A stretch of DNA of 64,000 bases from Sinorhizobium sp. 8-89. Lineage in GTDB: Bacteria > Pseudomonadota > Alphaproteobacteria > Rhizobiales > Rhizobiaceae. The position numbers and the translations under genes are program-made. The stretch spans positions 1-64,000 of the forward strand of contig NZ_JASKLR010000007.1 of assembly GCF_030124325.1 (NCBI RefSeq), in the 5' to 3' direction. Below are positions 9,802-50,400 of this stretch, piece after piece. Numbering within the stretch: position 1 is the first letter of the stretch; each line of letters opens with the position of its first letter. The notes beneath the pieces are model-generated. The model made no database searches and had not been told where the DNA came from. It was given only the letters and a program-made list of their open reading frames with translations.

Positions 9802-11160
9802 ATGTCTGCGATTATCGACAAAGCCCGGGCCCTCGATCATCTGCTCGCCACTGCCGTGCAGGACGACAAGGAGGCCGGCATATTCCGCTGCCGCCGCGAC
9901 ATCTTCACCAACGAAGACCTGTTCGAACTGGAGATGAAACACATCTTCGAGAGCAACTGGGTCTATCTGGCCCATGAAAGCCAGATTCCGGAGAACAACG
10001 ACTATTACACGACCTATATCGGTCGCCAGCCGGTGGTCGTCACCCGTGACAAGAACGGCGAACTCAACGCGGTCATCAATGCCTGCGCCCACCGTGGCGC
10101 AATGCTGTGCCGGCGCAAGCACGGAAACAAGGGCAGCTTCACCTGTCCCTTCCACGGCTGGACCTTCTCCAACACTGGCAGGCTGCTCAAGGTCAAGGAC
10201 GAGAAATCCACCCAGTATCCGCCCCAGTTCGCGAAAAACGGCTCCCACGACCTGAGGCGGGTGCCGCGTTTCGAAAGCTATCGCGGCTTCCTGTTCGGCA
10301 GCCTGAAGGAGGACGTGGCGTCGCTCGAGGACTTCCTCGGCGAGACGAAGGTCATCATCGACCAGATCGTCGATCAGGCGCCGAACGGGCTGGAAGTGCT
10401 GCGGGGCAATTCGTCCTACATCTACGATGGAAATTGGAAACTGCAGATGGAGAACGGCTGCGACGGCTACCACGTCAGTTCCGTGCACTGGAACTACGCC
10501 GCGACAATGGGCCGGCGCAAGGAAGAGGGTACGAAGGCGGTCGACGCCAACGGCTGGAGCCGCTCCGTCGCGGGCGTCTACGGTTTCGAGAACGGCCATA
10601 TTTTGCTGTGGACGAACACGATGAATCCCGAGGTCCGTCCGATTTACAACAGCCGGGACGAGATCAAGGCACGGGTCGGCGAAGACAAGGCGGATTTCAT
10701 CGTCAACCAGACCCGCAATCTCTGCATCTATCCGAACGTGTTCCTGATGGACCAGTTCAGCACGCAGATCCGCGTGACGCGCCCGATCAGCGTCGACAAG
10801 ACTGAGATCAGCATCTTCTGTTTCGCGCCGAAGGGCGAAAGTGCCGCGGATCGCGCCCTGCGCATCCGCCAATACGAGGATTTCTTCAACGTGTCCGGCA
10901 TGGGCACGGCCGACGACCTCGAAGAATTCCGTGCCTGCCAGGCCGGTTACGCCGGCACGGCGGCGCTCTGGAACGACCTGTCGCGGGGCGCGCCGCTCTG
11001 GATCGATGGTCCGGACGAAAACGCAAGGAGGATGGGCATAGTGCCGCTGCTTTCCGGCGAACGCAGCGAGGACGAGGGGCTGTTCGTCCGCCAGCACGAG
11101 TACTGGGCCAAGGTGATGTGCCAGGCGCTGGCCGCCGAAAGGGAAGGGGTCGTCGCATGA
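9802..11160 (+). CDS. benA: Benzoate 1,2-dioxygenase, large (alpha) subunit
   Basis: BenA carries the catalytic centre of the three-component ring-hydroxylating dioxygenase that makes the benzoate cis-diol. The 452-residue protein has a Rieske motif with C95, H97, C115 and H118 (CAHRGAMLC, then CPFHGW). The mononuclear iron site follows in [15 protein letters not shown], with the bridging Asp and two His. It overlaps benB by four bases (ATGA). A GGGAG site precedes the ATG. Toluate or anthranilate dioxygenases are close relatives; the cat and benK neighbours favour benzoate. Confidence 0.92.
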
Positions 11161-11645
11161 GCATTTCCTATGAAGCCGCGTGTGCATTCCTCTACCGGGA
11201 AGCGCGTCTTTTGGACGACCGCGAGTGGGATGAATGGCTCACCTGCTATGCGCCTGATGTGACCTATTGGATGCCGGCCTGGGACGACGACGATCAGCTC
11301 ACCGAGGATCCGCAGACGCAGATCTCGCTGATCTATTATCCGAGCCGTGACGGCCTGGAAGATCGGGTCTTCCGCATCAAGACCGAGCGTTCGGGCGCCT
11401 CGACGCCGGAGCCGCGCACCAGCCACAACGTGACCAATGTCGAGTTCGTGGAGATCCGAGGCGATGAGGTCGACCTTCGCTACAACTTCCACACGCTCAA
11501 TCACCGCTACAAGGTCACCGACCACTTCTTCGGCACCATGTTCGTCACGCTGCGCAGGAGCGACGACCGCCTGGTGATCTCGCGCAAGAAGATCGTGCTG
11601 AAGAATGACTACATCCGCCAGGTCATCGACGTCTATCACATCTGA
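11157..11645 (+). CDS. benB: Benzoate 1,2-dioxygenase, small (beta) subunit
   Basis: This 162-residue structural subunit pairs with BenA in the hetero-oligomeric dioxygenase. It starts [21 protein letters not shown] and has the family's [17 protein letters not shown] segment and the C-terminal [13 protein letters not shown]. The ATG overlaps the benA stop codon, so the two are translationally coupled. An earlier in-frame start at 11118 lies inside benA and lacks the coupling. Confidence 0.92.
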
Positions 11646-11686
11646 CGGCGTCGCCGGACGGCACAGGGACTGATGAGGAGGGTTCC

Positions 11687-12712
11687 ATGGCCAGTTACAG
11701 CATCGCTTTGAACTTCGAGGACGGCGTGACCCGTTTCATCGAATGCAAGGACGGCGAGAAGGTTCTCGACGCCGCCTTCCGCAACAAGATCAACCTGCCA
11801 ATGGACTGTTCCGACGGCGTCTGCGGTACCTGCAAGTGCCGCGCCGAGAGCGGCAGCTACGAGCTCGGCGACGACTATATCGATGATGCTCTGACGGCCG
11901 ACGAGGCTGAGAGCGGTCTCGTGTTGACCTGCCAGATGAGGCCGTCCTCCGACTGCATCATCGCGGTCCCAACCACCTCCATCGCCTGCAAGACCGGGCA
12001 GCAGACTTTCGCCGCCACCGTCGCCGCTGTGGTGCCGCACAACGATGCGGCGATCGCGCTGGAACTGGATGTCGACGCTGAGGCGCCTGCGTTCCTGCCC
12101 GGTCAGTACGTCAATATCGGTGTGCCGGGCAGCGGCGAGCACCGTTCCTATTCCTTCAGCACGGCGCCGAGCGAACGGCGCATCGGTTTCCTGATCAAGA
12201 AGATCCCCGGCGGCGTCATGAGCAACTGGCTGGAGCGCGCCGAAACCGGGACCAGGCTCGAGCTGACCGGTCCCTTGGGCAGTTTCTACCTGAGGGAGGT
12301 CGAGCGACCGCTCCTGTTCCTGGCCGGCGGCACAGGTCTTGCGCCGTTCCTGTCGATGCTCGAGGTGCTGGCGCGCGAGAATTCGCAAGAGCGGGTTCAC
12401 CTCGTCTACGGCGTCACCCGGGATCTGGACCTGGTTCTCGTCGACGAGATCGAGGCTTACGCAAAACGGCTCGCCAACTTCACTTACAGCACCGTCGTGG
12501 CCGAGGAGTCGTCCAGCCACCCGCGCAAGGGCTGGGTGACCCAGCATATGCCGGCCGAGGCGCTCAATGGCGGCGATGTCGACGTTTATCTATGCGGTCC
12601 GCCGCCGATGGTCGACGCCGTGCGTACCTATTTCGACGACAACGGGGTGAAGCCCCACAGCTTCCACTACGAGAAATTCACGCCCAATGCGTCAGCGAAG
12701 GTGGCTGCATGA
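11687..12712 (+). CDS. benC: Benzoate 1,2-dioxygenase electron-transfer component
   Basis: BenC passes electrons from NADH to BenAB. The 341-residue protein combines a plant-type [2Fe-2S] ferredoxin domain (residues about 1-95; cysteines in MDCSDGVCGTCKC and LTCQM) with an FAD- and NAD-binding reductase domain (HRSYSFSTAP for FAD, GGTGLAPFLSMLE for NAD). A GAGGAGG site precedes the ATG. Its stop overlaps the benD start (ATGA). Confidence 0.93.
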   Translation: MASYSIALNFEDGVTRFIECKDGEKVLDAAFRNKINLPMDCSDGVCGTCKCRAESGSYELGDDYIDDALTADEAESGLVLTCQMRPSSDCIIAVPTTSIACKTGQQTFAATVAAVVPHNDAAIALELDVDAEAPAFLPGQYVNIGVPGSGEHRSYSFSTAPSERRIGFLIKKIPGGVMSNWLERAETGTRLELTGPLGSFYLREVERPLLFLAGGTGLAPFLSMLEVLARENSQERVHLVYGVTRDLDLVLVDEIEAYAKRLANFTYSTVVAEESSSHPRKGWVTQHMPAEALNGGDVDVYLCGPPPMVDAVRTYFDDNGVKPHSFHYEKFTPNASAKVAA

Positions 12713-23572: not shown

Positions 23573-24562
23573 TTACGCAACGCCGGCACGCAGAAGATCG
23601 TGGACGTGCAAGATGCCGAGCGGCCGACGCAAATCATCGATCAGGAATAGCACCGTGATCTTTTGCGACTGCATCATTTCCATTGCCGCGCTGGCCAGCA
23701 TTCCACCCGTAATCACCCTTGGCATATGTGACATCACGGTCTCGACAGTGAGCAGCAAAAGATCCTCCGACATATGCCGCCGCAGATCCCCGTCGGTAAT
23801 CACCCCAACAAGATCACCGTCGCTACCAACTACACCGACGACCCCGAAACCCTTCGAGGACATCTGGATGAGCGCCTCGCCCATTGGACTGCCAATTGGC
23901 AATAGGGGCACGGCTTCCCCCGAATGGGCCAGCTCGTGTGCAAGAAGCAACTGAGAACCGAGCTTGCCGCCGGGGTGAAACGTCTTGAAGTCCTGAGCCG
24001 AAAATCCTCTCCGCTCAAGCAAGGCTATCGCGAGAGCATCTCCCACCGCCAACTGCAGCATCGCGGACGTGGTCGGGGCTAGCCCATGAGGGCATGCCTC
24101 CGACACTTTCGGCAGGACGATCGGCACCGTCGAGTTGCGCGCGATTATGCTGTCGGCATTCGAAGTGACGGAAATAACGGGAACATTGAAGCGCTTGGCG
24201 TAGGTGAGCATGTTGCCGAGTTCGACGGTCTCACCGGACCATGAAAGCAGAATAAGCAGATCCTGTGCCGTGATCATGCCGAGATCGCCGTGACTTGCTT
24301 CCGTCGGATGCACGAAATAGGCAGAGGTGCCGGTAGAAGCGAGCGTTGCGGCGATCTTGCGTCCGATGTGTCCGCTCTTGCCTATGCCCGCGACCACGAC
24401 GCGGCCACTCCTCGAGGCGACCAGTTCGACCGCGTCGACAAAACTGCTACGCAGGGCCGCGTCAGCCTCGAGACAAACCGCCAGCGCATCTATCCCGTCA
24501 GCAGCAGTGGCAACCGTGCGACGGATCGACGCCAGTATCGCGTCGCTTACAATCATATCCAT
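23573..24562 (-). CDS. kpsF: Arabinose-5-phosphate isomerase, KpsF/GutQ family
   Basis: KpsF converts ribulose 5-phosphate to arabinose 5-phosphate, the first committed precursor of Kdo. The 329-residue protein has an SIS sugar-isomerase domain (VVVAGIGKSGHIGRKIAATL near residue 55; STGTSAYFVHPTEASHGDLG; LLSWSGETVE) and two CBS domains from about residue 205 (GVVGSDGDLVGVITDGDLRR). Capsule clusters often carry their own copy beside the housekeeping one. Here it hints that the island's product contains Kdo or depends on Kdo supply. Confidence 0.9.
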   Translation of the reverse strand: MDMIVSDAILASIRRTVATAADGIDALAVCLEADAALRSSFVDAVELVASRSGRVVVAGIGKSGHIGRKIAATLASTGTSAYFVHPTEASHGDLGMITAQDLLILLSWSGETVELGNMLTYAKRFNVPVISVTSNADSIIARNSTVPIVLPKVSEACPHGLAPTTSAMLQLAVGDALAIALLERRGFSAQDFKTFHPGGKLGSQLLLAHELAHSGEAVPLLPIGSPMGEALIQMSSKGFGVVGVVGSDGDLVGVITDGDLRRHMSEDLLLLTVETVMSHMPRVITGGMLASAAMEMMQSQKITVLFLIDDLRRPLGILHVHDLLRAGVA

Positions 24563-24768: not shown

Positions 24769-25560
24769 ATGGCAGCCCGTAAGTCAATCTCGCCTTCGCT
24801 ACTTGGCCAATTGGAACTCGTGATGACGATTGAACCTGACGCGCTTGAAACATTGCGAGAAAAGCACCGCCGCTGGCTCTCGCGGCTCGGGATTCTCGAT
24901 AGGCCGTGGTTGGTCCTCGGCTCCGCACCGTCCCCCACGATACCACCGGACCTGATAGGACATTGCGCGCGCGTTGACGTTAATAACTCGGGCAAGACGG
25001 CCAACGCACTAGGTCTCCCGCGCGCCGATTTGACATTCCGGAAGCGGAAGAAGTCGTGGGAAGAGCATCCCTATGTAAGGACGAGAGGCCTGTTATGGCT
25101 CCACACGAGGCCTCTTTGGATGATGTACCTGAAACTTCTTTCAATGCCGCGCGTGCGTTACAAGAGCCTGATGCGCGCCACCAAGGATGAGCGCGAGGCC
25201 ATCGTCGACCTCGTGAGTGGCGGGCTTCCCTCCGATATTGGAGAGTTGGGCAAGGTGACGAACGGAGTTGCCGCCGTCTGCTACGGACTTTTCATGGGGG
25301 TGCCGTCTGTGACCCTCGCCGGGTTCTCAGTCACCAAGATGGGCCATTCTTACGACGACAAGGGGAGAATCCGGCGGCAGATCGCAGAAGACACCTTCGT
25401 TCTGACGCGTTTGAAAGATCGAGGAAATGTTTTCACGACCGAGTTGGAGCTCTCTGAGCACATCGGTCTGCCTTTCGTTCGTGATAGAAGCGACATTGCC
25501 GCCAACATGGACGGCTCGGCCGGCCCGGACCGGCTTCACCGGAGGTCCGCCCAAACATAG
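24769..25560 (+). CDS. Putative sialyltransferase-fold (GT42-like) protein, family copy 1
   Basis: This 263-residue protein has no firm family name. Its layout resembles GT42 sialyltransferases: GSAPS at 51-55 after a hydrophobic strand (WLVL), paired Asn at 72-73, TNG at 164-166, LAGFS at 183-187, GHSYD at 192-196 and Asp 208. The copy at 29128-29859 has the same landmarks at the same residue numbers, and two more relatives follow at 28163 and 29900. A CMP-sugar glycosyltransferase role in the cytosol is inferred. It is convergent with the GT39 gene and overlaps it by 25 bases. A downstream ATG at 24823 is an alternative start. Confidence 0.55.
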   Translation: MAARKSISPSLLGQLELVMTIEPDALETLREKHRRWLSRLGILDRPWLVLGSAPSPTIPPDLIGHCARVDVNNSGKTANALGLPRADLTFRKRKKSWEEHPYVRTRGLLWLHTRPLWMMYLKLLSMPRVRYKSLMRATKDEREAIVDLVSGGLPSDIGELGKVTNGVAAVCYGLFMGVPSVTLAGFSVTKMGHSYDDKGRIRRQIAEDTFVLTRLKDRGNVFTTELELSEHIGLPFVRDRSDIAANMDGSAGPDRLHRRSAQT

Positions 25561-27038
25561 GCAAAGGTGTATACGTCGCCCGGGCGCCCGGCGTTGTAGG
25601 GAACTGAGACCATCGTCGGCTTCGAATCGACCATTCTGATGGGTATGGATTCCAGCAGGACCGAAATGCGAGGAGGGATCGCTTCGAGCCCTCGACCCTC
25701 TGCCGACCAAGCAGCCAGAATTCGTCCCGCCGGAAGCCGTTTCTCCGCCCCTTGGGAAAATCCGGTCAGGATAATCGGAGTGTCGGGAAACTGAATTCTG
25801 AAGTTGCCCGCCACGATCCGGTCGTCGACTACAATAGCCACCGGTGGCGGACCGGGCTCAGCGCGCACAGCGGTGGCAAAGCCGCTATAGGGCGTGTGCG
25901 CGAAGGAATAGTCGCCGATCATCGGACCGATGAAGACCCTTGCCCACAGCATCAGGATGGCGCCGACGGAGAGGACGCCCGCTATCGAAAGAAGCGCGGG
26001 AAGGCGCCGAGCAGGATCCAGACCGGCGGCATCGATTTTCAGCGTGAGATAAAGCGGGAAAAGCGCCGTAAAAAGCGCCAGCCACTTCGGCCGAATGTGG
26101 GTCGCATCCATTGCGACGACGATAACCGCTACAATGAGGAAGCAGGCAAGAAGCATCCTGCCGACGACCCTCGTCCAGAGACTTTCGGCGCGAAGGATCT
26201 TTCCGAGATCCGCATGGAAGATGGAGCCGAAGACGGCGAGGGTCAGCGCGACACCCTTCAGCGTTGCAAATGCCAGCGAAACGAGCCCCTGGATCGCGTG
26301 CGGCAGCGCGTCGCCGGCCCCCTCCTTCATCTCAGCGACAGTGACACCCGTGGCATGGCCTATATTGTTGACGATCCAGAAGGCATGGGGTGCCACAATC
26401 AACACGCAAACCGCAGCCGAAGCGAGTACACGCCAGTCAAACAAGTGTTTGCGCAGCATCGCTTCCGGCAAAACGGCAAGCAATGCCGCGAGGGGGAGTA
26501 TAACGAAGTTGTATTTCGAAATCGCCCCGAGCCCTACGGCAGCGCCGACAAGCAAGTGGCGGCCAAGCCGGGGCGGTCTCTTTAGAGCTCGAAAAAAGGC
26601 ATAAAGGAAGAGCGACACCGCAAATAATGCTGCGACGGTATGGGACAGGTCGCGCTGCGACAGAAGGAAAACTGGTGGGAGCGTCAGGACGCCCAGCACC
26701 GCCACCGCCGGGGCGAACTCGCTGCTCGCGAGTACACGCGCGGTAAAGCCGTAGAATAGAAGAAAGAGGAACAGAAATCCGGCTTTTACGACAGTCAGCG
26801 ATGCGACGGAGATTCCAAATAGGGCCACGACTCCATATTGAAGCCAGTTGTAGAAGGGTGGCTGGGTTCCGTATCCGAGGAGCAGATATTGAGAGAGCAG
26901 AGCTTGTTCGGACTCGTCGATCTCGAGCGAATCCGGGCGCAGAATTTTCAAGACGATGCTCAGCAGGCAATAACCGGCAATCAGAACGTATAAGAGATTC
27001 GGTCGTCGAACCAGGAGACTGCGCATTCCCCCTCCCAT
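25536..27038 (-). CDS. Glycosyltransferase family 39 (ArnT/PMT-like) membrane protein
   Basis: About 500 residues with ten or more membrane segments. The first periplasmic loop reads SLEIDESEQALLSQYLL with the acidic pair typical of GT39, followed by TQPPFYNWLQ. QRDLSHTVAALFAVSLFLYA and GLGAISKYNFVILP follow the ArnT/RgtA-like plan. Such enzymes move a sugar from a polyprenyl phosphate to a glycan or lipid A on the periplasmic side. Two close ATGs (27038 and 27026) are possible starts; the second has GGGAGGGG before it. The frame extends to 27074. Donor and acceptor are unknown. Confidence 0.82.
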   Translation of the reverse strand: MGGGMRSLLVRRPNLLYVLIAGYCLLSIVLKILRPDSLEIDESEQALLSQYLLLGYGTQPPFYNWLQYGVVALFGISVASLTVVKAGFLFLFLLFYGFTARVLASSEFAPAVAVLGVLTLPPVFLLSQRDLSHTVAALFAVSLFLYAFFRALKRPPRLGRHLLVGAAVGLGAISKYNFVILPLAALLAVLPEAMLRKHLFDWRVLASAAVCVLIVAPHAFWIVNNIGHATGVTVAEMKEGAGDALPHAIQGLVSLAFATLKGVALTLAVFGSIFHADLGKILRAESLWTRVVGRMLLACFLIVAVIVVAMDATHIRPKWLALFTALFPLYLTLKIDAAGLDPARRLPALLSIAGVLSVGAILMLWARVFIGPMIGDYSFAHTPYSGFATAVRAEPGPPPVAIVVDDRIVAGNFRIQFPDTPIILTGFSQGAEKRLPAGRILAAWSAEGRGLEAIPPRISVLLESIPIRMVDSKPTMVSVPYNAGRPGDVYTFAYVWADLR

Positions 27039-27367
27039 CGTCCTCGCCCGTACTGGTCGTAATCCCGCGGGCAAGCGACAGCTACTAGGCGAAGTTGGAG
27101 GAATTTGCCAGACGCCCTCCTATGGCTACCAACTACAAAGCACAAGATTTCGCTTCATCCACAGGGACGAGACACTGCGACATGGAAGTGGTGTATGCCG
27201 GCGAGATAAACGTTATCCGCTGTCCCAGGCTTCACGCCGCCGCCATTTTTGGCTAAACCGGTTATTGGGTTGAGACGCAAATCAAAAGTCAGTTCAAGTC
27301 GTTTCGCCGCTTTGAGGAACAAGCCAGACCCAGGAAGTTTTGAAGCCTACCTATAATCGGAGGTGTG
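27039..27367. other. Divergent intergenic region, about 330 bp, no feature seen
   Basis: It separates the GT39 gene and a GT8-like gene and must hold both promoters. The part nearest the plus-strand gene looks A+T-richer than the surroundings. I see no convincing operator, RNA or small gene. Confidence 0.45.
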
Positions 27368-28057
27368 ATGACGCAAAGTGCTCATATTTACATCGGCTTC
27401 GATAGCAAGGAAGTCGTTGCCTATCATGTTCTTTGCCAAAGTATTCTGGAAAAGAGCTCCATCCCGGTCTCGTTCACGCCAATATCCCTGAACAACGTCG
27501 AGAGGATTTTTACGCGCGAGCGGAATCCTCTCCAATCTACCGAATTTTCCTTTTCGCGATTCCTCGTGCCGTATTTGAGCAGCTACGAAGGTTGGTCGCT
27601 TTTCGTCGACTGCGACATGCTGATGCGAACTGACATCGCCCAGTTGTGGGAGCTGAGAGACGATCGCTACGCGGCGATGTGCGTAAAACACAACTACGTT
27701 CCGAAAGTCGAAACGAAGTTCCTGGGGCAGGTCCAGACCAAGTACGAAAAGAAGAACTGGTCGAGCGTGATCCTGTTCAACAATGCCAAGTGCCGAAAGC
27801 TGGATCTGGATTACGTCAATACTGCTACCGGGCTGGAGTTGCATCAGTTCAAATGGCTGGATTCCGACGACCTGATCGGCGAACTGCCGGCGAACTGGAA
27901 CTGGCTCGTCAACGAGTACGAATATTCGCCGGATGCAAAGCTTGTCCATTTCACAGATGGCGGGCCTTACTTCGATGAATACAAGAACGATGACTACGCC
28001 GAGGAATGGTTGGCTGCACGTGATCGCGTTCTTCATGTAACGCAGCGATTGTCTTAA
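27368..28057 (+). CDS. Glycosyltransferase, GT8-like (GT-A fold)
   Basis: This 229-residue protein begins MTQSAHIYIGFDSKEVVAYH and has a DxD-type metal site, FVDCDM, at residues 79-84 after SRFLVPYLSSYEGW. VKHNYVP and SSVILFNNAKCR follow, as in GT8-like enzymes that use UDP-sugars. CGGAGG sits four bases before the ATG at 27368; a GTG directly precedes it. It is cytosolic, with no membrane segment. The C-terminus has LVHFTDGGPYFD, where family members place the His that helps bind the donor diphosphate. It ends against a terminator-like hairpin. Confidence 0.72.
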   Translation: MTQSAHIYIGFDSKEVVAYHVLCQSILEKSSIPVSFTPISLNNVERIFTRERNPLQSTEFSFSRFLVPYLSSYEGWSLFVDCDMLMRTDIAQLWELRDDRYAAMCVKHNYVPKVETKFLGQVQTKYEKKNWSSVILFNNAKCRKLDLDYVNTATGLELHQFKWLDSDDLIGELPANWNWLVNEYEYSPDAKLVHFTDGGPYFDEYKNDDYAEEWLAARDRVLHVTQRLS

Positions 28058-28080
28058 TCGCGCGACGCCATGAGCATTTC

Positions 28081-28118
28081 ATCGGGGCGGTGGAGACGAT
28101 CTGCCGCCCTGCCCCGAT
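28081..28118. terminator. Stem-loop between convergent glycan genes
   Basis: ATCGGGGC and GCCCCGAT form an eight-pair outer stem; GGTGG and CCGCC extend it inside a two-base bulge. It lies between the ends of two convergent genes, so it may end transcription both ways. No clear T-run is present. Confidence 0.5.
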
Positions 28119-28162
28119 GTCAGTTCTTCGATGCACCTTCGCTTCCAATCCCAGCTAAAACG

Positions 28163-29068
28163 TCAGTCAGTTTTGGCTAACGTCGCGTCGTAGCCAAACC
28201 CCACCTCGATAAGCGCCGAGACCGGCGAGTAATTTGCGATCTCGATGCCGCTTTCGACGGCTATGCTCCGAGCCATTACCAGATGGTCGATAATCCATTT
28301 TTGGGCCGTGATGATTCCCGAATAGGCTTTATCGGTTGTTTCATAGTATCTGGGCTCATCAGCATTACTGATATCGATCCCCACGAACCCGATCGCGCGA
28401 GGCTTCCAAGCGACGGCAAACTGTGTAGCTGAAACGGCCACTGAGCCTGCCTGGAAGACGCCGGCGGAGGGATCCTCAGAAAACCCTATCGCACCGTCCT
28501 CGCTCAACCTCACATGGGACAGCTTGCGCAGTTCCACGGTGTCTCGGCGTGCCAACCCATATGGCTTTCGTAAGTTATCGATCAATACGATCGTTTTATC
28601 TCGCAACCATGTGCTGTCCAATTCACAGATCGCCCTTATGACGCTCACCGACAAGAGACACACGCATCCGGCCGGGACCCGCTTCATGAGATCGAAGTGT
28701 CTCCATACGAACCGCTCGTCTTCAATTGCAACCGCCAGGGGCTTTGCTATTACCGCGGGAAAAAGATGCACTGCGCCGTTCAAGAGAATGCAGGAAGACT
28801 CATCTGCGCGGGTGAGGTCGCATTGCGCAATCGAAGGACCGGAGCCGACGATAAGCACGCTCGATGATTTTGCCTCCAGGGCGCGCGAGTGGCTCGTGAG
28901 ATGTCCCACCAACTCGCCCCGATACTGGATCATGCCATCGCGATCTGCAGTCGCACGCTCGAGCTTGAGACCGGGAAACCAGTCCTGCACGTGTGCCCTG
29001 GAATGTCCTAGTAGCAGACGAACGGCGATCTTGATGCAAGAACGGGAAAAGGGGCGGTTCGAGCGCAT
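28163..29068 (-). CDS. Putative sialyltransferase-fold (GT42-like) protein, family copy 2
   Basis: From the ATG at 29068 (AAGGAA just upstream) the product has 301 residues. After an N-terminal basic helix region it has LIVGSGPSI (G75-S79), Asn 97 in ILLNGA, DPSAG ending at Gly 203, VGIDIS at 229-234, and SPVSAL at 281-286. GT42 enzymes such as CstII show the same order: GNGPSL, an Asn after the second strand, TSG, SGID, and a C-terminal P.S.L. The frame extends to 29149 but would then overlap the next gene. Likely donor (CMP-sugar) and role are inferred. It follows the 29128-29859 gene on the same strand. Confidence 0.55.
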   Translation of the reverse strand: MRSNRPFSRSCIKIAVRLLLGHSRAHVQDWFPGLKLERATADRDGMIQYRGELVGHLTSHSRALEAKSSSVLIVGSGPSIAQCDLTRADESSCILLNGAVHLFPAVIAKPLAVAIEDERFVWRHFDLMKRVPAGCVCLLSVSVIRAICELDSTWLRDKTIVLIDNLRKPYGLARRDTVELRKLSHVRLSEDGAIGFSEDPSAGVFQAGSVAVSATQFAVAWKPRAIGFVGIDISNADEPRYYETTDKAYSGIITAQKWIIDHLVMARSIAVESGIEIANYSPVSALIEVGFGYDATLAKTD

Positions 29069-29127
29069 TGATTTCCTTATCGCAGGCGTCGGGCAGGCAA
29101 ATGACAACGACGTGAGTGCAAGAAATT

Positions 29128-29859
29128 TCAGCGGCTTGGATCGGTCCACAACGGTATGCCGAGCTCTTCCGAAACCGGCGGATCCGCCGTGAAGATCGGG
29201 CGCCCCTCACTAATCAACTTCGAAACGAGAGCTTTGTCCATGTGAACGTGAAGACGTGTCAAACCCGCTGAATTATACACATGACCGGTTGAGTTCGGGT
29301 TTATACCAGTAATGATGACGGCGGGGGCACCGTTATAAAGGGCAAAGAGAACCGCGTTCATTCCATTCGAGCATTTGGAATCCGCGTCCATCTCGAGGGA
29401 ACGCAAATTCGCCACGCGGTCCAGCAACGCCATCCGCTCGTATCGGTCAACGATTTCCAGCCGGTCGTATTTGTAATCGAACGCCCTTAAGCCCTCCTCC
29501 AGCCGCGCGCGGTCGTCCTTTCGCCAGAGAAATACATAGAGCGTCCCGGTGCGCTGCCCCGTTAGCACACGCCTGACTTCAACCGCATTCGGAGTGGTTC
29601 CTTCGACCTGGTTGAACATCATCATGGTTATATCGGGCGCATCGACGCCCCACTTGCTGATGACCGATTGAGAGCCGTTCACGGTAATGATCCTGAAGCT
29701 CTCGTCCAATCCGGCCGGTTTATGGGACACAGGAGCGGACCCGACGACCACGACGGGACTATTGAATCGAAAGGGCGCAGCCGGCGGATCCGGACGCATT
29801 ATGCGGTACTTCAGATTTCGGTATATGCGCTTGCGCGCGTCGGAGATCCATGATCCCAT
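29128..29859 (-). CDS. Putative sialyltransferase-fold (GT42-like) protein, family copy 3
   Basis: The 243-residue protein starts at an ATG with TGAGGA three bases upstream. Landmarks are VVVGSAPVS (G40-V44), Asn 61 in ITVNGSQS, SNG at 164-166, ITGINP at 183-188, GHVYN at 192-196, Asp 208 and a closing SEELGIPLW. These match copy 1 (24769-25560) almost residue for residue in position, although overall identity is low. It forms a minus-strand run with the 29900 gene upstream and the 28163 gene downstream and is probably co-transcribed with them. Function as a glycosyltransferase is inferred from the fold pattern. Confidence 0.55.
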   Translation of the reverse strand: MGSWISDARKRIYRNLKYRIMRPDPPAAPFRFNSPVVVVGSAPVSHKPAGLDESFRIITVNGSQSVISKWGVDAPDITMMMFNQVEGTTPNAVEVRRVLTGQRTGTLYVFLWRKDDRARLEEGLRAFDYKYDRLEIVDRYERMALLDRVANLRSLEMDADSKCSNGMNAVLFALYNGAPAVIITGINPNSTGHVYNSAGLTRLHVHMDKALVSKLISEGRPIFTADPPVSEELGIPLWTDPSR

Positions 29860-29899
29860 TTATCCTCACCGGAAATCGATACTCGGAAATTTGATGCTA

Positions 29900-30730
29900 C
29901 TACGCCTTCGTTTTCCTTGGAAACTTCGGCTTCAGCCGCCGTAATAATTCGTCAATGGATCGCAATACGTTTGTCAAAGAAATCAACTTGTCGACTTGCG
30001 CATCGGTCTGGCTCAGTCGCGATGACAAGACTTCAGCGATCGTCGAGGAGATTTCAGCAGCGGGCAATTCCGGGAAGCGCGAAGCGAGCGATGTGTAACT
30101 GTTTGTCGTGATACCACCATGCATCGTCAGCTTGCCCACTCTTGCAAAGAGGCGCAAGAAGACCTGCTCGAAAGTCCAGTCATGAACAGCCACCACCCGC
30201 CACTTTTCGCTGCGCTTTGCCGAGAACCCCGCCAGAACGATCTCGGCCGGAAGCGCCTGGTCCACCAGCCACAGGGCGATGGCGAAGCCGCTTGTGGGGA
30301 CTTTATCCTGCGGGTAAAAGTCCGCGCAGAAGCCCGTCAAATCCAAATGGCCGGTGGGCGTCCCCAGGTAATCCGAACTAGTGTTCAATCTCTCGCTCGC
30401 CGCCAGGCGGATGTTCATGATGCCTAGAAACGCTTGGGGCGCGAACAGCTTGACGACGTCAGCGACCTCTTGTCGGTAGACGATGTTGGCGCCTCTTGGC
30501 TGGGCGCGTGAGATCAGTAGGGAGCGGCCGGAAAATTGTTCGTCAAGAACCTTGTAGACCTTGTTGAAGAATACAAAGAGAGCCGTCCGCGGATATTCGG
30601 CCTCAAGTGCCTTGACGCTAACCTGGTCGCTGTTGGCGACGAGAATGATGTGTGAGAACGCCGAAAACAGTGCACGCCATTGCTCCGTTGTCGTCAACTT
30701 CTCCGTCGTTCCGGAAGCGGGAAAGTCCAT
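29900..30730 (-). CDS. Putative sialyltransferase-fold (GT42/GT29-like) protein, divergent family copy 4
   Basis: This 276-residue protein is the most distant member. It has HIILVANSDQ at 27-36 in place of the GSxPS loop, Asn 56 in FVFFNKVY, TSG at 146-148, LAGFS at 166-170 and HDWTFEQ at 183-189. The block TSGFAIALWLVD...IVLAGFS recalls the S motif of GT29 and the TSG...SGID block of GT42. It lies 40 bases upstream of copy 3 on the same strand. Without the glycine-rich loop its donor binding may differ, or it may be a non-catalytic partner. Start at the ATG at 30730 is plausible but has no strong ribosome site. Confidence 0.45.
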   Translation of the reverse strand: MDFPASGTTEKLTTTEQWRALFSAFSHIILVANSDQVSVKALEAEYPRTALFVFFNKVYKVLDEQFSGRSLLISRAQPRGANIVYRQEVADVVKLFAPQAFLGIMNIRLAASERLNTSSDYLGTPTGHLDLTGFCADFYPQDKVPTSGFAIALWLVDQALPAEIVLAGFSAKRSEKWRVVAVHDWTFEQVFLRLFARVGKLTMHGGITTNSYTSLASRFPELPAAEISSTIAEVLSSRLSQTDAQVDKLISLTNVLRSIDELLRRLKPKFPRKTKA

Positions 30731-30970: not shown

Positions 30971-31885
30971 ATGTTTGGACTGAAGGCTAAACGGCATCTT
31001 ACGAGAGAACTTGCTATCACGCCTCCGGCAGCAGAACTGAATCGACGTGGCATTGCGATTGTCGCCTGCGTGAAAAACGAAGCTAGCTACATCGAGGAGT
31101 GGGTGCGTTTTCACCAAGCTGTCGGTGTTCGACATTTTCATGTCTATGACGACGGCTCGACTGATGGCACGCTCGGTGTGCTTCAGCGGGTATTGAAGCC
31201 CCAGGAACTGACCGTCGTCCCTTGGAAAATGCGCATGCGGGACGAGGAAAGTGGTGAGTTTTTGAACGGGCAGACGATTGCCTTCGCACATGCGATTCTA
31301 AACTTTGGCGGCAGATATGATCGTATGGCGTTCATCGACGTCGATGAATTCTTGCTTCCCAAGAAAGGTCGGACGCTAGAGGAAGCCCTACGAGGAGCAG
31401 GTGGGTTTCCGAATATTTCCTTGCCCTGGCACATGTTCGGCCATAGCGGTCATGTCGCCCGACCAGCAGGGCCCATATGCCTCAATTACAAAATGCGGGT
31501 CGCCGATCCGATGCAGCAGAACCTCGACGCAAGTAATTTCAAGTGCATTATCGATCCGGTCGAGGTCACGAAAGTGGGCGTGCATCACTTCCAAACACGT
31601 TCCTACGGCGACAGAACCGCAAATGATGCGGGGAAAGTGGTATCAAAGAAGAAGCGGAAGGCTGCCGAATTTTACTCTGCGGAGTTCGTACAGCTCAACC
31701 ACTATTACGCGAAGTCGGTCGAGGAGCTGAAGGAAAAGACAGACAGAGGCTGGTCTTTCGACGGATCTGCAGAGAAATACCGCAACAAGGTCGCTACCAC
31801 CATCAAGTATATTGAATCCAACGTCGTCGAAGACCGCAGCATGCTCGAATTCATCGACGAAAATGGGATCGATCTCGGTCAGTGA
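30971..31885 (+). CDS. Glycosyltransferase family 92 (DUF23-like)
   Basis: The 304-residue protein has the GT92 pattern: IAIVACVKNEASYIEEWVRF at residues 28-47, HVYDDGSTDGT at 57-67, and the metal-binding FIDVDEFLLP at 121-130. A His in VGVHHFQTRS and the late FVQLNHYYAKS are also typical. Such proteins are cytosolic GT-A enzymes that often add galactose-like sugars. It opens a short plus-strand pair with the ELM1-type gene 75 bases downstream. The acceptor is unknown. Confidence 0.8.
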   Translation: MFGLKAKRHLTRELAITPPAAELNRRGIAIVACVKNEASYIEEWVRFHQAVGVRHFHVYDDGSTDGTLGVLQRVLKPQELTVVPWKMRMRDEESGEFLNGQTIAFAHAILNFGGRYDRMAFIDVDEFLLPKKGRTLEEALRGAGGFPNISLPWHMFGHSGHVARPAGPICLNYKMRVADPMQQNLDASNFKCIIDPVEVTKVGVHHFQTRSYGDRTANDAGKVVSKKKRKAAEFYSAEFVQLNHYYAKSVEELKEKTDRGWSFDGSAEKYRNKVATTIKYIESNVVEDRSMLEFIDENGIDLGQ

Positions 31886-31959
31886 TTTGAGCCAGCGCAA
31901 GGGTAACGCGCGGAATGAAGTAAGCGTCAGATCGGAGTTAAGGCTTGCAAGATAAAGCG

Positions 31960-32907
31960 ATGACAACGTCGAACACGACCTGCGTATGGGCGGTGGCGGA
32001 AAGCAAGGCGGGAACGCTCACGCAGTGCCTTGGCGTTGGAAAAGAGTTTCACCGGGAACCCGTGGTCAAATTGATCAGTCGGGCCCGCGGCCTGAGGAAG
32101 CTGTTCGAACCCAGGCTCTTTCGCAAAAAGGAACAGCGTCCCGAGTTGGTAATCTCCTGCGGTTTTCGGGCTGAGCCGGCAGTTCTTGATATTAAGGCGG
32201 CCTATGGCGGCAAACCTCTGACCGTGCACCTCCAACGTCCGCGCATCGAAGGATATGATCTCGTTTTCGTCTCTCGTCACGATTGGGTAGACGAATTGAA
32301 AGAGCGGCCGAACTATCATTCAATGGTCGGAGTACCGCATCAGATTACCTGGGCGCGGTTGGCGCCTCTCAGGGATGCCGCGCGCAAACGATTCTCGCCG
32401 GACGGCCGCCCAATAGCCGCCGTCTTCGTAGGTGGCTCGAATGGCGCATATGTATATGACGACAGAACCCACCAGAATATAAAACGCGCCATCGAGCAAT
32501 TGGAGAAAGAGGGTTGGCGCATCGTTGTGTCGGTCTCACGCAGATCTGAAGACCACACTCAGCAGGCCCTGTCGGCACTCAACAGCGAAAACATCGCCGT
32601 GTGGGACAGGCGAAGCGAGAACCCATATCTCGACTACATGGCCGCCGCCGACGCGTTCTTGATCGCAAAGGACTCGATCACAATGCCCTGCGAGGCTCTG
32701 GCGACGGGCAAGCCGGTCTTTACACTTGACTTAAGCCCCGTCGTTGGCCCGCGGCTGGACAAGTTCGAGCGCTATCACCGGGACCTGCACGAGACACTCC
32801 GGCTGACGCGGCCGTTCGAAGGAAAGCTCGAATCCTACAGCTACGAGCCTCTCGACGAAACGCGCAGGATCGCCTCGGTAATCCGTTCGAAGCTCAACCG
32901 CCCGTAA
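31960..32907 (+). CDS. ELM1/DUF1022-family protein, GT-B-like
   Basis: This protein of about 315 residues belongs to the family named after plant ELM1 (mitochondrial fission); bacterial members are common in Rhizobiales and usually unassigned. It has the family's SKAGTLTQCLGV near the N-terminus, ELVISCGFRAEP, AVFVGGSNGAYVYDD as the start of a second Rossmann half, and the late block DSITMPCEALATGKPV, like the donor site of GT-B enzymes. A glycosyltransferase role is an inference from that block and the neighbours. A TTG at 31945 is an alternative start; the ATG at 31960 is preferred. Confidence 0.75.
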   Translation: MTTSNTTCVWAVAESKAGTLTQCLGVGKEFHREPVVKLISRARGLRKLFEPRLFRKKEQRPELVISCGFRAEPAVLDIKAAYGGKPLTVHLQRPRIEGYDLVFVSRHDWVDELKERPNYHSMVGVPHQITWARLAPLRDAARKRFSPDGRPIAAVFVGGSNGAYVYDDRTHQNIKRAIEQLEKEGWRIVVSVSRRSEDHTQQALSALNSENIAVWDRRSENPYLDYMAAADAFLIAKDSITMPCEALATGKPVFTLDLSPVVGPRLDKFERYHRDLHETLRLTRPFEGKLESYSYEPLDETRRIASVIRSKLNRP

Positions 32908-49647: not shown

Positions 49648-50400
49648 ATGAATCGCGGAAATTCTGCCAAAGCTCTCGTGCTCATTCCTGCGCGGATGGC
49701 GTCCACACGCCTGCCCGGCAAACCTCTCGCCGACATTTGCGGCTTGCCGATGATCGTGCAGGTGGCCAAGCGGGCGGCCGAGGCGGACGTCGGGCGTATC
49801 GTCGTCGCCGTTGACCACCGCGACGTGTTCGAAGCGGTCAGCGATGCCGGTTTCGAGGCGATCATGACGCGGGTCGACCATCAGTCCGGCTCGGACCGTA
49901 TCCATGAAGCCCTGCTGAAGGCGGACCCCGACGGGAATGCCGAGATCGTGATCAACGTCCAGGGCGACCTGCCGACGATCGAGCCCGGCCCGATCCGCGC
50001 GGCGCTCAAGCCGCTCGAAAACGCCGCGACCGACATCGCGACGCTCACGGTCGAGATCACCGACGAGCATGAAAAGACCAATCCCAATGTCGTGAAGGTT
50101 GTCGGCTCGCCGATTTCCGAGAGCCGCCTGCGCGCTCTCTATTTCACCCGCGCGACCGCACCACACGGCCCCGGACCGCTCTACCATCACATCGGCCTCT
50201 ACGCCTATCGGCGCAAGGCGCTTGAAACGTTCGTGTCGCTGAAACCTTCGGTCCTCGAAAAGCGCGAGTCGCTCGAACAATTGCGGGCGCTTGAGGCAGG
50301 GATGCGCATCGACGTCGAGATCGTCAACTCGGTCCCCCTCGGTGTCGACACGCCGGAAGATCTCGAAAAGGCCCGCCGCATTCTCTCCGTCAAAGCCTGA
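49648..50400 (+). CDS. kdsB: 3-deoxy-manno-octulosonate (Kdo) cytidylyltransferase
   Basis: KdsB activates Kdo with CTP to CMP-Kdo for lipid A-core and Kdo-containing capsules. The 250-residue protein reads [20 protein letters not shown] at the CTP loop, [12 protein letters not shown], and [12 protein letters not shown], all family blocks. It is 15 bases from pheA. If KpsF in the glycan island feeds Kdo synthesis, this would be the shared activating enzyme. Confidence 0.93.

Follow-up and report, generated by a model that had tools for sequence, protein, structure and literature searches.

What do the four genes c1 to c4, poorly annotated and found close together in a glycan island of the nitrogen-fixing soil bacterium Sinorhizobium sp. 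8-89, encode, and does one of them deserve the sugar-activating name that databases give it? The genes lie in a window of 64,000 nucleotides (positions 1–64,000 of contig NZ_JASKLR010000007.1, assembly GCF_030124325.1), the whole stretch of DNA that was analysed. An earlier note on this DNA had taken them for four divergent GT42-like proteins with a sialyltransferase fold, and the open reading frames (ORFs) that it named were all confirmed: c1 at 24769–25560 on the forward strand, with 263 amino acids (aa), and, on the reverse strand, c2 at 28163–29068 (301 aa from an ATG, with an alternative GTG start at 29149), c3 at 29128–29859 (243 aa) and c4 at 29900–30730 (276 aa). Only 40 and 59 bases separate the genes c4, c3 and c2, which follow one another on one strand with c1 nearby. 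Our answer, held with slightly better than even confidence, is that c1–c4 are envelope-glycan transferases of the sialyltransferase superfamily, most likely using cytidine monophosphate (CMP)-activated 3-deoxy-manno-octulosonate (CMP-Kdo) or a close CMP-ulosonate. They would form three families of that superfamily, with its GT42/GT29/MptE-like fold.

The predicted structures carry much of this answer. The model of c3 is closest to the GT42 sialyltransferases CstII and CstI in both Foldseek and VIA, and VIA places that of c4 nearest to CstI, with a sialyltransferase lead over MptE (10.5 vs. 10.2) that amounts to a tie; the CstII-type fold that marks CAZy GT42 is predicted here, at 9–14% identity in the structural alignments of the c3 and c4 models to CstII and CstI. 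Both models are also close to MptE, and that of c3 to Maf proteins, which share its predicted fold (structure 5mu5). For c2 the indications come from profiles: the protein matches TIGR04437, the model of the Kdo-III transferase WaaZ, with E 1.2e-10 (41.2 bits, residues 66–265), and the same profile is matched by all 80 aligned c2-family sequences at E ≤ 1e-3 (best 1e-13), while a second WaaZ profile, PRK09822, is matched by 35 of the 80 and the MptE-like PF01973 by 74 at E ≤ 0.01 (best E 1.2e-6). The fold claim is strong and well supported for the c3 model and, by homology to c3, for c1; it is moderate for the c4 model, and for c2 the fold is predicted by profile only. A sialyltransferase-type fold had been expected by the earlier note, and neither a predicted fold unlike GT42/GT29 nor a high-confidence match to an unrelated family turned up.

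The likeness to GT42 holds for the fold and for motif spacing and does not extend to membership. PF06002 (CST-I) matches none of c1–c4 at E ≤ 1 and nothing anywhere in the genome; control genomes gave no match either, and the same model did find a GT42 domain above its cut-off at a locus in another genome of the same order (L047). Because PF06002 finds no match, c1–c4 are, as far as sequence can tell, not GT42 members. No sequence relationship was found between c1–c4 and the GT29 sialyltransferases either. Aligned by hhalign with one genuine GT42 sequence, the c2 family gave 73.8% over 33 columns, and the c3 (A1) and c4 (A5) families gave nothing significant, that of c3 falling in the expected register. 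Sequence searches of the PDB with c1, c2 and c3 singly and with profiles of the c3 (A1), c2 (A2) and c4 (A3) families yielded nothing significant; the only hit of the c2 profile was the Maf structure 5mu5 (E 0.16), on the GSGPS loop. For c3, a match to SufE (E 0.16) was judged to be noise, because the confident c3 model has another fold; in its family, 6 of 70 sequences reach E ≤ 0.1, with 0.0094 as the best value.

Nor are the four genes copies of one kind. Homology is clear between c1 and c3 (hhalign of c1 against the c3 family, 98.7%, E 2.6e-16), and a search of the genome with c1 also retrieves c3 (E 5.7e-11, 27% identity); in profile comparison neither c2 nor c4 resembles c1/c3 significantly, nor do the two resemble one another (hhalign probabilities <1%), and because of this the island is made up of three sequence families, c1/c3, c2 and c4. 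The c1 protein has no match in the Pfam and NCBIfam scans, and neither the c1/c3 nor the c4 family has a credible model match in the copies of these databases that were scanned. Most of the c2 relatives among the best 120 of 354 homologues carry the precomputed label PF27901.1; the c2 family already has an entry, PF27901, in a newer Pfam, which is absent from the results of the copy scanned here for the c2 family. The family alignments were built from the best 120 of 203 (c3), 354 (c2) and 433 (c4) homologues, from which sequences longer than 90% of the query were taken and thinned at 85% identity; this left 69, 79 and 33 sequences, respectively, the c4 alignment (A5) then gained six loci, and the conservation counts given below reflect close relatives for the most part. 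For c1, 11 sequences were aligned, all of them from the genus, as 4 of 15 orthologues were excluded for a stop codon in the matched stretch.

The landmarks reported for c1 and c3 are exact: T164-N165-G166, G192-H193-S194-Y195 and D208 in c1, where all eight of these residues are invariant, and S164-N165-G166, G192-H193-V194-Y195 and D208 in c3, where S164, G166, G192, H193, Y195 and D208 are invariant and N165 is nearly so. Written as an ordered pattern (G[SN]xP, N, [TS]xG, 18 residues, G[IF], 8 residues, Y), these landmarks are carried by 84 of 85 c3-type and 18 of 18 c1-type ORFs. Among 3592 other stop-to-stop ORFs of at least 150 aa, from the window and 82 related loci (L041, L042, L049–L128), one fits the pattern; as it was fitted to c1 and c3, these other ORFs control only for chance and are not an independent test. 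An order common to all four proteins, as the earlier note described it, stands for c1 and c3. The c2-type ORFs do not fit the tight pattern and show a looser order in 12 of 22 cases (12 of 3592 in the others), and none of the 31 c4-type ORFs fits either pattern as written; the c4 family instead keeps T-x-G-F, 18 residues, G-F, 13 residues and H-D-W in all 40 aligned sequences. CstII has T-S-G, 18 residues, G-I-D and a Tyr ten residues past that Gly, and the spacing is identical in c3 (70 of 70 aligned sequences) and c1 (11 of 11), with GI or GF after the 18 residues; in contrast, where CstII has a Tyr four residues past the Gly of GID, c3 has Asn and c1 has Thr. A catalytic His in CstII-like order, the last of the motif claims, finds candidates in two proteins. 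The base of CstII is reported to be His188 (PMC4202792), and its counterparts, as judged by position and helix order rather than by superposition of coordinates, would be His204 in c3, invariant in 70 sequences and directly ahead of a predicted helix, and His183 in c4, invariant in 40 and three residues ahead of one.

The region is syntenic with S. meliloti pSymB: 80 plasmid records match it, and in 63 a single place accounts for at least 80% of the query. The record of strain ml45 calls c4 a 3-deoxy-manno-octulosonate cytidylyltransferase, c3 a membrane-anchored protein and c2 a glycosyl transferase. In strain 1021, whose record (NC_003078.1) comes without a gene table, counting along the list of ORFs between published anchors makes c1 the probable orthologue of SMb20808, c2 of SMb20805, c3 of SMb20804 and c4 of SMb20803. 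The anchors were SMb20813, the msbA homologue according to PMC10945364, and SMb20817 and SMb20820, given as a LacI regulator and the ferredoxin reductase mocF in PMC11387232; the count also leans on SMb20811, a small ORF for which the annotated ml45 record is the only source, and mocE was not seen among the strain 1021 ORFs of at least 150 aa. We take SMb20803 to be kdsB2, judging by what its product is called and by its position ahead of SMb20804. Mutations of these genes are reported to affect polymerization of the Kdo capsule (Muller, Forsberg and Keating, 2009). The genes rkpA, kdsB2, smb20804 and smb20805 are listed in PMC5539429 among those affecting the capsule of S. meliloti 1021, which that paper describes as a Kdo homopolymer with beta-(2-7) linkage; with these genes mutated, the competitive index in the presence of the nodule peptide NCR247 is stated to have been higher. 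Beyond PMC5539429, no paper on SMb20802–SMb20807 was among the literature matches listed, from a searched set that leaves out most subscription papers. With the likeness of all four proteins to enzymes that attach sialic acid, and with c2, c3 and c4 matching these capsule-linked genes, c1–c4 are good candidates for unrecognized Kdo-attaching enzymes.

The genes also keep company. Orthologues of c1 (at least 76% identity) and of c4 (at least 81%) occur in the same 15 of 33 genomes of the genus, our own included, and the cluster therefore behaves as a cassette. All four types lie within ~10 kb at 11 of 80 c3 loci (the best 80 of 89 found; L049–L058 and L060, with c1 at ≥69%), and the neighbours detected by tblastn at any identity around these 80 are a GT8-like gene (38 loci), c4 (28), a GT92 gene (26) and c2 (19, a count that takes in distant 25–28% matches in Pigmentiphaga). 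Across 151 genomes of the family, judged from the printed genome labels to be the same set in each search, c3 was counted in 17 (those of 26 matching genomes with E < 1e-40), c4 in 31, c2 in 9 (of 10, one weak match, G687, being left out) and PF05159 in 38; pairs among the four co-occur above expectation, with p from 0.0002 to 0.009 when shared ancestry is not corrected for. At the level of the order, a search for c4 relatives found them in 3 of 249 genomes, our own included. In two family genomes (G698 and G723), c4 and c2 sit side by side in opposite orientation. At one c3 locus (L124, ~10001–12300), the strand opposite to c3 carries, next to it, a second match of the c1/c3 type with 27% identity to c1.

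As we picture it, c1–c4 would transfer Kdo, or a close ulosonate, from its CMP form to build a Kdo-containing envelope glycan, which in Sinorhizobium would include the poly-Kdo capsule, by single displacement with His204 (c3) or His183 (c4) as the base. We infer the transferase activity, the donor and the mechanism; a role with Kdo is plausible for these proteins and tied to the published genetics. A CMP-Kdo-type donor had been called plausible in the earlier note in view of the nearby KpsF; the KpsF gene next to c1 counts in favour as genomic context, and the WaaZ matches and the S. meliloti genetics now lend the idea support. A clostridial Maf protein is reported to transfer Kdo (PMC11339370).

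What weighs against this proposal begins with its chemistry. GT42 enzymes are described as inverting (PMC4202792) and the donor form is named as CMP-beta-Kdo (PMC12887879), and inversion would therefore be predicted to yield alpha-Kdo; the mismatch with a capsule reported as beta-(2-7) is the main difficulty. The characterized retaining beta-Kdo families according to PMC12887879 are GT99, GT107 and GT140, which have a modified GT-B fold. Because the genome has four PF05159 (KpsC/KpsS type) matches, on contigs C13 and C24, beta-Kdo polymerization already has candidate enzymes. Relatives of c2–c4 occur in Rhizobium and, among the matches listed, those of c3 also in Phyllobacterium and Pigmentiphaga, whereas a review places the capsular polysaccharide (KPS) among rhizobia in Sinorhizobium (PMC8227245). 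No PF05159 match is present in 6 of the 17 c3 genomes or in 17 of the 31 c4 genomes of the family. Finally, c1 has Gln204 at the position of His204 in c3, and because of this c1 may either use another residue, such as the invariant His193, or be a noncatalytic partner.

Some of these points would suit a different explanation, which we regard as possible though clearly short of an even chance: retaining enzymes of the GT107 type (KpsC and RkpZ; PF05159) make the poly-Kdo chain, and c1–c4 act elsewhere, adding a primer, a cap, a branch or another CMP-ulosonate or working on another envelope glycan, with an indirect effect on the capsule. It draws on the PF05159 matches in the genome, on the genomes that have c3 or c4 and lack PF05159, on the Kdo capsule context and on the reported beta linkage, which such retaining enzymes would suit. 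It has to contend with the listing of the gene set as affecting the capsule (PMC5539429), with the WaaZ-like character of c2 and with a co-occurrence of PF05159 above expectation (Fisher p 0.001 for c2, 0.0003 for c3 and 0.009 for c4, uncorrected for ancestry); c1–c4 themselves have no PF05159 match. If c1–c4 are CMP-Kdo-using transferases, they would either add an alpha-linked portion or have a different glycan as their target, unless the fold works differently here.

Further points against the proposal concern the fold. For the c4 model Foldseek support is weak, no hit reaching E ≤ 1e-3; c2 is under the curated cut-off of TIGR04437 (41.2 vs. 200 bits) and under the gathering score of PF01973 (18.1 vs. 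34.6 bits); and the fold predicted for c3 and c4 also serves pyrophosphokinases, MptE being one, and SteA. It could be asked whether the proteins share the fold and are no glycosyltransferases at all, being pyrophosphokinases such as MptE and thiamin pyrophosphokinase or regulators like SteA; we think this improbable, as sialyltransferases head the ranking for both c3 and c4 (for c4 in the tie with MptE), a Kdo transferase profile is matched by every one of the 80 c2-family sequences, the neighbouring genes include glycosyltransferases and a capsule phenotype is on record (PMC5539429).

The name of c4 in many records, 3-deoxy-manno-octulosonate cytidylyltransferase, would make the protein a divergent CMP-Kdo synthetase, which is very unlikely: it has no PF02348 or TIGR00466 match, BLASTP finds no significant alignment (E 0.83) with the true KdsB of the window (49675–50367, forward strand, 231 aa with the stop codon excluded; TIGR00466 E 4.2e-64, above cut-off; PF02348 E 1.3e-45), its model is closest to sialyltransferases, and two kdsB genes of the genome, the one in the window and one on contig C19, score above the curated cut-off. 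We rejected a KdsB function for c4 on the missing cytidylyltransferase profile, the missing KdsB alignment and the resemblance of the model to sialyltransferases, and the database name appears to be a propagated misannotation. When the window KdsB was searched by tblastn against plasmid records, pSymB of strain 1021 was not among the 7 Sinorhizobium matches, all of which fall within the 60 listed (13 further records include none from Sinorhizobium), and this plasmid probably carries no true kdsB. In two loci from other genomes of the genus, a c4 paralogue (~33% identity) adjoins a gene recognized by eye from its translation as GT8-like (L036, 690–1454 and 1510–2301; L038, 1492–2274 and 2330–3067), and G740:C18, G667:C4 and G690:C3 each have a closely spaced pair of c4-type genes on one strand.

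The surroundings of c1–c4 are rich in sugar-related genes. A KpsF/GutQ-type sugar-phosphate (arabinose-5-phosphate) isomerase gene (23573–24562, reverse strand; TIGR00393, 273 bits, above cut-off), belonging to the Kdo precursor pathway, adjoins c1. A membrane glycosyltransferase gene of the GT39/PMT_2 type (25536–27074, reverse; PF13231, E 1e-11) is convergent with c1, the 3' ends of the two overlapping by 25 bases (25536–25560). Between c1 and c2 lies the GT8-like glycosyltransferase gene (27365–28057, forward; PF01501, E 4.3e-5, just under the cut-off). Beyond c4 follow a GT92-type glycosyltransferase (30971–31885, forward; PF01697, E 1.8e-38) and a putative glycosyltransferase of the ELM1/GtrOC1 type (31945–32907, forward; PF06258, E 1.7e-74), annotated in the same way in CP140959.1. 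The genuine GT42 domain at L047 (460–2265, reverse) is fused to a glycogenin-like GT8 domain, an arrangement that may be set beside the GT8-like gene of the window, a relative of which is found near 38 of the 80 c3 genes.

A bolder step, which we put forward only tentatively, is that CMP-Kdo transferases of the sialyltransferase superfamily, including families c1/c3 and c4, assemble the Sinorhizobium poly-Kdo capsule or a part that it cannot do without. If so, 'kdsB2' would be one of these transferases and not a CMP-Kdo synthetase, and either the reported beta linkage would need revisiting or the fold would have found a way to beta-Kdo. The capsule-linked genes of S. meliloti have so far been called 'CMP-Kdo synthetase', 'membrane-anchored protein' and 'glycosyl transferase'. 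Should they all have the sialyltransferase fold, capsule assembly would become directly testable, a misleading annotation copied from record to record could be corrected and the known range of donors of this fold would widen. The chemistry bears on symbiosis, too, because mutations in these genes are reported to alter competitiveness under an antimicrobial nodule peptide of the host (PMC5539429).

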